Assembly: GCA_041545745.1 (NCBI GenBank)
Contig: CP168152.1
Span: 556,001-620,000, forward strand
Direction of reading: 5' to 3'
DNA length: 64,000 bases
Origin: Stenotrophomonas indicatrix
GTDB taxonomy: Bacteria > Pseudomonadota > Gammaproteobacteria > Xanthomonadales > Xanthomonadaceae
The position numbers were made by a program, and so were the translations under genes. This document shows positions 3,155-56,268 of the stretch, piece by piece. Numbering within the stretch: the first letter of the stretch is position 1; every line of letters begins with the position of its first letter. The notes beneath the pieces were generated by a model. That model saw only the letters and a program-made list of their open reading frames with translations, was not told the origin of the DNA and did not search any database.

Positions 3155-3258
3155 GGGAGGACGGATGGGCCGCGCAGGACACGCCGCAAGTACGTCCGTG
3201 TAGGCTCGTAGGCGCCATCCATGGCGCCTGCGGTCCTGCGCGGCCCATCCGTCCTCCC
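3155..3258. repeat. Structured hairpin repeat H1
   Basis: Perfect 26-bp inverted arms (3155-3180 and 3233-3258) enclose a 52-base core. The core begins ACGCCGCAAGTACGTCC and ends in an inner 18-bp palindrome, GGCGCCATCCATGGCGCC (3211-3228). The same core occurs in H2-H6, but the outer arms differ. It lies just past the peptidase stop, between convergent genes. Confidence 0.8.
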
Positions 3259-3422
3259 CAGACAGTTTCCTGCGGGCGCGGATGCATCAAGCCCAAGGCG
3301 GGAGCAAGGGCAAAAGCAAAAGCTGGAATTCCGGCTTTTCCATTTGTCTTTGAATTTGAGTTTGATCCTTCTTCTCCCGGCTTCCCGGCGGGACAAGTAG
3401 GCGCTGGAAATGTCTGAAGCGC

Positions 3423-3522
3423 TGGGGAGCGGGGTCGGCGCAAAACCGCAGGCGCCATGGATGGCGCCTACGAGCCCCCATGGATGGGTTTACGGCGTGT
3501 TTTGCGCCGACCCCGCTCCCCA
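3423..3522. repeat. Structured hairpin repeat H2
   Basis: Perfect 24-bp arms (3423-3446 and 3499-3522) enclose the H-family core in reverse orientation relative to H1. The arm sequence, which starts TGGGGAGCGGGGTCGG, is unrelated to the H1 arms although the cores are about 80% alike. H1 and H2 thus form an inverted pair about 370 bp long. The stretch between them (3260-3420) is A- and T-rich for this genome and holds no gene. It contains a weak AAAAGC...GCTTTT stem near 3319-3341. Confidence 0.8.
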
Positions 3523-3574
3523 ACGCCCACACAAAGCCCACCGCCAGCTCTCAAACCACCCGGCAGCCAGCAAC

Positions 3575-3604
3575 AAAAAAGGGACGACGCGTTAGCGTCG
3601 TCCC
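3575..3604 (-). terminator. Rho-independent terminator of rhlE
   Basis: On the minus strand a perfect 10-bp stem (3595-3604 with 3581-3590) and a 4-base loop are followed by six T residues (3580-3575). It lies about 50 bp past the rhlE stop codon. Confidence 0.85.
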
Positions 3605-3654
3605 CCGATAAGCAGCCCCCGCGCAGCGGGAGACGCCATCCCTGTCAGCTGGGA

Positions 3655-5076
3655 TCAGCTGGCGCGACCGCCGCCGCCACCTTGGCCGCGGCCACGACCG
3701 CCACCCGTATTGGCACCGCCACCGCGACGCTGGCCCTGACCGGCACCTGCGCCTGCGCGCTGCTGGCCGTTGCCACCGCCCTCGCGGCGGCCACCGCCGG
3801 CCTTCTTCGGGCCTGCATGTGCATGACGCGGCGCATCGCCGTGCGGACGGCGCGCGTGGGTCTTGCGCGGCACGCGCTCGCCGGTATCGGCCTCGGCCTT
3901 GCCCGGTGCACTGTTGCCCCAGCGGATCGGCGTCTGCAGCTCGAAGCCCGGCACATCGCGGATGTCCATGTCACGGCCCAGCAGGCGCACGATCGCGCGC
4001 AGCAGCTTCACTTCATCCTGCGCAACCAGCGAAATCGCTTCACCGGTAGCACCGTTGCGGCCGGTACGGCCAATGCGGTGCACGTAGTCTTCGGCCACCA
4101 TCGGCAGATCGAAGTTGATCACCTTCGGCAGCTCGTTGATGTCGATACCGCGCGCGGCGATGTCGGTGGCCACCAGCACGGTGACACGGCCAGCCTTGAA
4201 GTCGCCCAGCGCACGCAGGCGCTGGCCCTGGCTCTTGTTGCCGTGGATCGCCGCAGTCTTGATGCCGGACTTTTCCAGGAACGCGGCCAGCTTGTCGCTG
4301 CCGTGCTTGGTGCGGGCAAACACCAGGGTCTGCTCGCGGCTGTCCTGCGCCAACAGGTGCAGCAGCAGGTCGCGCTTGCGGCTGGCATCGACCGGATGCA
4401 CCTTGTGGGTGATGGTCTCGGCGACGGTGTTCTTCGGCGTCACCTGGATCTGCTCCGGGTTGCGCATGAACTCCAGCGCCAACTGGCGGATGTTGTCCTC
4501 GAAGGTGGCCGAGAACAGCAGGGTCTGGCGGTTCTGCTTGGGCAGCTTGGCCAGGATGCGCTTGATCGAGGGCAGGAAGCCCATGTCCAGCATGCGGTCG
4601 GCTTCGTCCAGCACCAGCACTTCAATGCCGGACAGGTCGATGCTGCGACGCTCCAGATGGTCGATCAGGCGGCCCGGGCAGGCCACCAGCAGATCCACGC
4701 CGCGACGCAGGATGTCCAGCTGGTTGCCCATGCCGACGCCGCCGTAGATGCAGGCGCTGGGGATGCGCAGGTACTTGCTGTAACCGCGCAGGCTGTCATG
4801 CACCTGGGTGGCCAGTTCGCGGGTCGGTGCCAGGATCAGCGCGCGCGGCTTGCGCGGGCCGGTACGCACTTCCTGCGAAGCGGTGCCCAGGTGCTGCAGC
4901 AGCGGCAGGCCGAACGCGGCAGTCTTGCCGGTGCCGGTCTGTGCGCCGGCCAGCAGGTCGCGACCGGCCAGCACCAGCGGGATCGCCTGCTGCTGGATCG
5001 GGGTCGGGGTTTCGTAGCCCTGCTCGGCGAGCGCACGCAGCAGGAAGGGCGCAAGGCCCAGGGATTCAAAAGACAT
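3655..5076 (-). CDS. rhlE: DEAD-box ATP-dependent RNA helicase RhlE
   Basis: 473 residues. The N-terminal Q motif (Phe3, then the TPIQQQAIP block) is followed by AQTGTGKT (Walker A), PTRELA, DEAD within VLDEADRMLDMGF, SAT, ATDIAARGID and HRIGRTGR, a complete DEAD-box core through about residue 370. The C-terminal 100 residues are low-complexity and rich in Gly, Arg and Lys, typical of RhlE tails that bind RNA and fold little. It unwinds short RNA duplexes and helps ribosome assembly and RNA turnover in the cytoplasm. It stands alone, with its own terminator and a hairpin just upstream of the start. The family is certain; the RhlE subgroup is favoured by length and tail over DbpA, SrmB or CsdA. 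Confidence 0.9.
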   Translation of the reverse strand: MSFESLGLAPFLLRALAEQGYETPTPIQQQAIPLVLAGRDLLAGAQTGTGKTAAFGLPLLQHLGTASQEVRTGPRKPRALILAPTRELATQVHDSLRGYSKYLRIPSACIYGGVGMGNQLDILRRGVDLLVACPGRLIDHLERRSIDLSGIEVLVLDEADRMLDMGFLPSIKRILAKLPKQNRQTLLFSATFEDNIRQLALEFMRNPEQIQVTPKNTVAETITHKVHPVDASRKRDLLLHLLAQDSREQTLVFARTKHGSDKLAAFLEKSGIKTAAIHGNKSQGQRLRALGDFKAGRVTVLVATDIAARGIDINELPKVINFDLPMVAEDYVHRIGRTGRNGATGEAISLVAQDEVKLLRAIVRLLGRDMDIRDVPGFELQTPIRWGNSAPGKAEADTGERVPRKTHARRPHGDAPRHAHAGPKKAGGGRREGGGNGQQRAGAGAGQGQRRGGGANTGGGRGRGQGGGGGRAS

Positions 5077-55746: not shown

Positions 55747-55884
55747 CGTCGGCTTCGGATTACGGCAGAGATACCTATTCTGCCAGCCCGGCCGGGGGAG
55801 GGGTATCGGCCGGGCGGCGCCCGGCACCCGCCGAATCAACATCAACGTCAACGTCAACGTCAGAAGCCGGGTTTCCTGTGGGAT

Positions 55885-55986
55885 GGCGGGGTGGGTCCGG
55901 TTGCGGGGGACGCCGTGAATCCGTCCCTGGAGGCTTGGGCGCGCCATCCATGGCGCTTACACCCCCGCAACCGGACCCACCCCGCC
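55885..55986. repeat. Structured hairpin repeat H5
   Basis: Perfect 25-bp arms (55885-55909, 55962-55986) enclose a core that starts ACGCCGTGAATCCGTCC and has an inner GCGCCATCCATGGCGC. The arms extend those of H4, and the cores differ. Confidence 0.8.
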
Positions 55987-56031
55987 TTCGACAGATCTCT
56001 GCAATCTGTCTGGACGGCGTGGCTGCTATTG

Positions 56032-56144
56032 GTAGGTGTCGACCTTGGTCGACAGTAGATCCACGCCATGCGTGGATGTTTTTCGTCCCGATTTCGAAAT
56101 ATTCGATTTCGATGGAGATTCATCCACGCATGGCGTGGATCTAC
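56032..56144. repeat. Cluster of three SMAG palindromes
   Basis: GTAG plus TGTCGACC/GGTCGACA (56032-56054) is followed immediately by GTAG plus ATCCACGC/GCGTGGAT (56055-56077). A reverse copy ends in CTAC (56122-56144). The arrangement matches the centre of element A. Confidence 0.78.
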
Positions 56145-56166
56145 TGGCCACCGGGAATCTGTCGAA

Positions 56167-56268
56167 GGCGGGGCACTGTGGGTTTGCGGGGTGTGAGCCG
56201 CATGGATGCGGCGCCCAAGCCTCCATGGACGGATTCACGGCGTCCCCGCTAACCTGCAGTGCCCCGCC
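56167..56268. repeat. Structured hairpin repeat H6
   Basis: 25-bp arms (56167-56191, 56244-56268) pair except at three positions, two of which would be G-U in RNA. The core is in reverse orientation to H5, with inner GCCGCATCCATGCGGC, again a changed but paired stem around CATCCATG. Confidence 0.75.

Follow-up and report, generated by a model that had tools for sequence, protein, structure and literature searches.

A 64,000-nucleotide stretch of the Stenotrophomonas indicatrix genome (assembly GCA_041545745.1, contig CP168152.1, positions 556,001 to 620,000 of the forward strand), hereafter the window, possesses six copies, H1 to H6, of a repeated element in which two inverted arms enclose a core of two hairpins. 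Its fold is real and well conserved. The element appears related to the Yersinia repeat YPAL (RU-2) and to the Rfam motif TwoAYGGAY (RF01731), and is a candidate ligand of the regulator CsrA. The six copies and their coordinates, as given in a first-pass annotation of the window, were confirmed by inverted-repeat search and reading by eye; the core, put there at 50 bases, is 52 nt long in most copies. The features are as follows, the strand being that of the ANGGA loops:

3155..3258, minus: H1, complete element, 26-bp perfect arms 3155-3180/3233-3258 (exact inverted-repeat search)
3207..3232, minus: H1 hairpin B (core 1-26), loop AUGGAU at 3217-3222; consensus structure mapped by hand
3183..3205, minus: H1 hairpin A (core 28-50), loop at 3194-3199 inside UACACGGACGUA; consensus structure mapped by hand and compared with the CsrA consensus
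3423..3522, plus: H2, complete element, 24-bp perfect arms 3423-3446/3499-3522 (28 bp allowing one mismatch); outward partner of H1
3447..3472, plus: H2 hairpin B, loop AUGGAU at 3457-3462; mapped by hand
3474..3496, plus: H2 hairpin A, loop AUGGAU at 3480-3485; mapped by hand
5436..5534, minus: H4, complete element, 23-bp perfect arms 5436-5458/5512-5534; outward partner of H3
5719..5782, plus: H3, left part, with 5' arm 5719-5745, hairpin B and part of hairpin A, up to an insertion sequence (IS); read by eye
7217..7261, plus: H3, right part, with the remainder of hairpin A and 3' arm 7235-7261; read by eye
55885..55986, minus: H5, complete element, 25-bp perfect arms 55885-55909/55962-55986, identical to the H4 arms
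56167..56268, plus: H6, complete element and outward partner of H5, its 25-bp arms holding 3 mismatches

With H4 and H5 sharing one, the six copies comprise five arm types. The arms of H3 (27 bp, 5719-5745 with 7235-7261, by eye) are perfect, and the element is interrupted inside the loop of hairpin A by an IS at 5783-7216. The IS contains two transposase open reading frames (ORFs) with the domains HTH_21/rve and HTH_Tnp_1, has the ends TGAAGTGACCCCC, and a 3-bp repeat (TGG) marks its edges.

Further repetitive features occur in the window. Inverted pairs of GTAG-headed hairpins, similar to repetitive extragenic palindromes (REP) or SMAG, lie between H4 and H3 (5605-5696) and between H5 and H6 (56053-56146). 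Runs of GTTGCC/GGCAAC-like hexamers are located just outside the elements (5395-5420 and 7280-7325), with similar runs beside many other copies of this genome. The palindrome at 11955-12023 (69 bp; perfect arms of 34 bp about a single central base) is unlike the element.

Fold, covariation and strand

In the consensus fold, the outer stem and hairpins B and A meet at a three-way junction; each hairpin has a six-base loop, and hairpin A in addition an asymmetric inner bulge. This fold was evaluated in a seed alignment of 49 diverse copies chosen from 61 candidate rows; the 12 excluded rows were ten from other genera, mostly of shifted register, and two from S. indicatrix left out by choice. In this alignment, for which arm G.U pairs had been given half credit during the picking of copies and which is to be read with that caution, 95.5% of the cells are paired, versus 63.3% with partners shuffled, and sliding by one to three columns drops pairing to 35.0-43.2%. 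Two-sided changes occur at 27 of the 29 pairs, and RNAalifold, given the alignment alone, recovers the same 29 pairs. RNA folding of the five unsplit window copies yields z = -12.3, -10.2, -8.0, -8.2 and -6.8 against dinucleotide shuffles, none of which equalled them. Hairpin B of some Stenotrophomonas copies carries tandem A.G and G.A mismatches in place of Watson-Crick pairs; tandem G.A is also described for TwoAYGGAY.

Mismatches in the arms were scored by a rule symmetric between strands. Read on the strand with the ATGGAT-type loop, 98 non-redundant arms contain 82 G.U against 12 A.C mismatches (165 against 21 in 236 unfiltered arms), with 49 elements leaning towards G.U and 7 towards A.C (sign p 7.5e-9). 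The ratio is 61 to 8 in other genera alone and 22 to 4 in Stenotrophomonas alone (p 0.013). Purine-purine arm mismatches number 59 and pyrimidine-pyrimidine ones 12. As a control, 37 inverted repeats of the same DNA that are not copies of the element have 24 G.U and 13 A.C, a small set that leans in the same direction. Since a process acting on double-stranded DNA is blind to the difference between G.U and A.C, the G.U excess argues for selection on the fold of one strand, which by its mismatches is that of the ANGGA loops. Wobble asymmetry offers a sequence-only test of the strand under selection.

H1 and H2 are each traceable at their place through 17 genomes, S. indicatrix counted. Their arms vary by species yet pair, with at least two Watson-Crick types at 12 of 27 pairs in H1 and 15 of 28 in H2. 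Two-sided changes outnumber one-sided ones by 49 to 5 cells in H1 and by 55 to 6 in H2, where rows with insertions or deletions (L163, L166, L168) raise the mismatch counts and L151, whose H2 has a 1-base deletion, was left out. One-sided change is seen as a G.U step in the H2 arm of the close pair L150/L151 (97% identical). Placed on the tree of the helicase gene, arm types need 7 changes versus 7.1 with shuffled labels, and 11 versus 10.9; the tree is weak, with good support at just 5 of its 27 inner branches, and these alone force two to four changes per type. At the same locus, cores occur combined with different arms. Because arm types do not track the gene tree and cores have varied arms, arms and cores were probably exchanged among lineages. 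Exchange would thus shape the arms besides compensation, the two-sided counts representing few swapped arm types.

The first-pass annotation had proposed that outer and inner stems both stay paired while their sequences change, which the 49-copy alignment and RNAalifold bear out, and had seen in this double compensation the preservation of a folded structure. Preservation agrees with the covariation and the wobble bias; the two-sided counts do not stand as independent compensations, with arm types swapped among lineages and unrelated loci having simply different inverted repeats. Better evidence for selection on the fold comes from the one-sided wobble bias and from the covariation of the inner hairpins, the latter because their columns are homologous.

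Six congener stretches of the gap that contains H1 and H2 show neither element. Four of them belong to genomes with zero copies and two to genomes with 1 and 13 copies, and a short hairpin of 12-15 bp is retained in all six.

Copy number, distribution and genomic position

The genome of S. indicatrix contains 174 matches to the core pattern (87 on either strand, up to 3 mismatches), compared with 2 (1 on either strand) for the reversed pattern at the same setting. A total of 141 copies were read, counting the right half of H3 as one; arms are present in 134 and perfect in 61. The copies are about 92-110 bp long with arms of 20-29 bp, and among the 134 there are 98 distinct arm strings, of which many resemble one another. 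Allowing one mismatch at most, 47 of the 61 Stenotrophomonas genomes have copies, 1 to 147 in each and 116 in S. indicatrix.

An exact core scan of species genomes yielded at least 119 stretches; among the matches listed, all belong by name to Gammaproteobacteria, except four labelled just Proteobacteria. A covariance-model search, as suggested in the first-pass annotation, was carried out with a model built in this analysis (R1, the best 20 places per genome being scored) and finds the element in 45 of 229 gammaproteobacterial genomes, S. indicatrix counted. Fifteen plasmid records of Enterobacterales contain a core-like stretch of 47 bases. On an IncR plasmid of Citrobacter, a related core (L324, NZ_CP039328.1 18397-18444) and the 3' end of an alcohol dehydrogenase gene lie some 110 nt apart. 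The core is also present in four IMG/VR viral contigs (L320-L323), where it is possibly host flank. A single query with a 52-nt core found no match in E. coli genomes (E 0.01).

Gene calls for S. indicatrix were based on G+C content at third codon positions (GC3), those for other genera on an ORF-length finder only, and both are crude. For 128 S. indicatrix copies both neighbouring genes were called; these genes converge on the copy in 52 cases and diverge from it in 6. The 3' neighbour runs towards the copy in 88 of the 128, at a median distance of 85 nt. In other genera, 26 of 65 such copies sit between convergent genes. Seven of the 141 S. indicatrix copies are flagged within a GC3-called gene; the ORF-length finder flags as inside an ORF 61 of 134 elements in S. 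indicatrix and 17 of 83 in other genera.

Close pairs of copies point outward in 49 of 50 cases in S. indicatrix, at 74-279 nt from each other, so that 98 of the 134 copies belong to outward pairs; a GTAG-headed hairpin lies between the partners in 32 of these 49 pairs. In other genera the outward orientation occurs in 6 of 13 close pairs.

Proposed CsrA binding and alternative explanations

The core of the element contains two ANGGA motifs in 130 of 134 S. indicatrix copies and in 47 of the 49 seeds. The distance from the first to the last GGA is 20 nt in 96 and 24 nt in 31 of the 130 copies; at 24 nt, the last GGA seems to lie within the stem. Hairpin B is outside the search pattern, and part of the hairpin A motif is inside it. 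The loop of hairpin B is conserved as its stem varies, its bases A, G, G and A being kept in 30, 31, 32 and 31 of 33 cases. CsrA has the consensus RUACARGGAUGU, with GGA favoured in hairpin loops, and its dimers are reported to bridge sites 10-63 nt apart, best at more than 18 nt. The element sequence combines both properties, looped GGA and two sites within 10-63 nt, and two ANGGA motifs per core fit one CsrA dimer. The motif UACANGGAYGUA is present in 66 of 134 S. indicatrix copies and 22 of 49 seeds. Compared with the CsrA site obtained by systematic evolution of ligands by exponential enrichment (SELEX), hairpin A agrees at no fewer than 10 of 12 positions in 18/49 and 41/117, against 7 of 20,000 random places. 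The S. indicatrix genome has csrA, and a motif survey independently proposes TwoAYGGAY as a CsrA binder. Weighed together with the contrary observations given below, the chance that the element binds CsrA is put at about one half.

The wider proposal, of a mobile RNA element of the YPAL/TwoAYGGAY kind that binds CsrA and sits near the 3' ends of genes, is likewise judged as evenly balanced. Under it, the ATGGAT-loop strand of each copy would encode an RNA with a long outer stem, a three-way junction and two short ANGGA-loop hairpins, arising by read-through from gene 3' regions. One dimer of CsrA (RsmA) would bridge the two loops, and the outer stem would act as a clamp, free in sequence provided that pairing holds and probably accessible to RNase III. 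The copies may jointly titrate CsrA, protect or mark the 3' ends of the transcripts that carry them, or both; they would spread as mobile repeats, with arms and cores exchanged by recombination.

Several observations weigh against this proposal. Hairpin B is a poor SELEX match, with at least 10 of 12 positions agreeing in 4/49 and 0/117. No csrA was found in 4 of the 45 genomes with R1 matches (G068, G129 and G160, of 67-88% completeness, and G255, 98% complete), and the gene does not discriminate, being present in 41 of 45 genomes with and 153 of 184 without the element. Not a single copy was found in 14 of the 61 congener genomes (up to 1 mismatch). Tandem gaps have no sense preference (34 sense versus 36 antisense in S. 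indicatrix, 16 versus 12 in other genera), which does not favour a role of one strand in 3' untranslated regions. Single-sequence folds often give hairpin A a shape different from the consensus, and the inner stems are without wobble bias (G.U to A.C: 8 to 4 in other genera, 2 to 7 in S. indicatrix). Of the TwoAYGGAY members, 3 of 15 readable ones hold GGA in a single loop, and the Yersinia small RNA (sRNA) family Ysr224 (RF02770), which contains the core of the element, models the strand opposite to the ANGGA loops.

A selfish mobile hairpin, recognised by a mobility enzyme as single-stranded DNA or RNA structure, would explain the strand bias by recognition instead of cell function; we consider it unlikely. 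Folded DNA, too, tolerates G.T better than A.C. The 174 matches in one genome, the range of 0 to 147 copies within the genus (up to 1 mismatch) and the outward pairs around GTAG hairpins are in line with such an element, as are the element-free sites described above, similar empty sites and target-site duplications of 3-26 bp being reported for YPAL. Left unaccounted for are the resemblance of the loop to a known RNA-protein site and the persistence of H1 and H2, each kept in place in 17 genomes.

An mRNA 3'-end element independent of CsrA, whose stem would stabilise transcripts, process them or shield convergent genes from each other, and whose loops would have another ligand or simply suit folding, agrees with the location of copies beside gene ends and between convergent genes. 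De Gregorio, in work of 2006, is reported to have observed higher accumulation of YPAL-bearing transcripts. According to a review, YPAL may affect the stability of upstream transcripts. Such an element would leave unexplained why hairpin B retains ANGGA despite its changing stem; tandem gaps show no strand preference, and by eye no consistent U-tract follows the arm, unlike in an intrinsic terminator. This explanation, too, appears improbable.

Correction of palindromes at the DNA level by template switching, which would maintain perfect arms without selection on RNA, matches the 61 of 134 perfect arms and the two-sided excess at H1 and H2 but is very unlikely, being strand-blind and hence already disfavoured by the 82 G.U against 12 A.C, while swapped arm types can yield the two-sided excess and hairpins A and B covary as well.

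Should the proposal of a CsrA-binding element hold, the copy numbers of 0 to 147 across Stenotrophomonas would form a naturally occurring series in which the strength of a global regulator varies. The proposed binding of CsrA by TwoAYGGAY becomes directly testable in organisms with more than 100 copies. A more far-reaching but improbable possibility is that the dispersed array of more than 100 mobile two-site CsrA clamps, with stem sequences free to drift, is the CsrA/RsmA antagonist of Stenotrophomonas, replacing a single sRNA gene, and that read-through transcription throughout the genome sets global CsrA activity. Rfam models of CsrB and RsmZ found nothing above cut-off in S. indicatrix and 10 relatives (RsmX, RsmY and similar sRNAs were not searched); the CsrB model matched its E. 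coli control, and RsmZ was above cut-off in no control. A comparable absence of such sRNAs is in print for Xanthomonas.

Relation to known families

The sponges CsrB, RsmZ and RsmU are described as binding CsrA/RsmA by GGA hairpins, as proposed here for the element. They are single genes with several GGAs, whereas the Stenotrophomonas element consists of dispersed repeats. SMAG, a GTAG REP family of the same genus, is a 23-nt GTAG-tagged single hairpin without visible sequence resemblance to the element. The first-pass annotation was right to keep the two apart, as GTAG-headed hairpins stand between paired copies and the element itself has neither the GTAG tag nor the short hairpin.

Other candidates were rejected. 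CGTC and GTAG REP families differ in size and tag; weak microRNA matches reflect generic long stems, several matching both strands; and intrinsic terminators are excluded by the lack of a consistent U-tract after the arm (flanks of 45 S. indicatrix copies and other loci, by eye). At curated thresholds, Rfam has no match in the window and just one tRNA across 11 sources. Among the matches listed in open-licence literature, no account of the family in Stenotrophomonas or Xanthomonadaceae was found.

The same annotation had named no family with this architecture, a view that does not hold: the core is that of YPAL/RU-2 and the architecture that of TwoAYGGAY. YPAL/RU-2 shares 46 of 53 core bases with the best S. 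indicatrix copies (median 42 over 134 copies), against a mean of 25.8 and a maximum of 32 in 50 shuffles. It likewise possesses two GGA-loop hairpins in an intergenic, multi-copy repeat, and its presence/absence polymorphism and intergenic location are also true of the Stenotrophomonas element. YPAL differs in its length of about 168 bp, its longer imperfect arms and its conserved flanking sequence, as opposed to about 92-110 bp and variable arms.

TwoAYGGAY combines two GGA-loop hairpins within a poorly conserved outer stem and matches the element on the same strand. The match stays below the RF01731 cut-off of 43 bits (31.6 at H1; best 39.7 in 21 Stenotrophomonas genomes). Above cut-off, RF01731 occurs in 7 of 143 gammaproteobacterial genomes, in some of them in multiple copies, with three outward pairs in G146; G112 and G133 are matched by R1 as well. 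These members have the same architecture with other junction sequences (by eye). Out of 20 RF01731 loci, the match is readable in 15, and 12 of these have GGA in both loops (by eye). Many loops of the Stenotrophomonas element are AGGGAY or AAGGAY, unlike the AYGGAY of TwoAYGGAY, and conform to the looser ANGGAY. Another kind of adjacent double GGA-loop hairpins, with a partial-model RF01731 match, is present in the Stenotrophomonas genomes G018 (L261) and G004 (L266), neither of which contains an H1-type core.

The Ysr224 model scores 33.1 bits at H1 and 40.8 at L098, with a cut-off of 70. Given the shared YPAL core, the shared TwoAYGGAY architecture and scores below cut-off, the element is, by sequence comparison, a variant of the YPAL/TwoAYGGAY kind and not a member of either as defined. 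Its fold is partly known already under other names; new are its spread, the hypervariable arms, the wobble signal of one strand and the outward pairs. One architecture in many Gammaproteobacteria thereby links the YPAL repeat, the orphan Rfam motif TwoAYGGAY and Ysr224.

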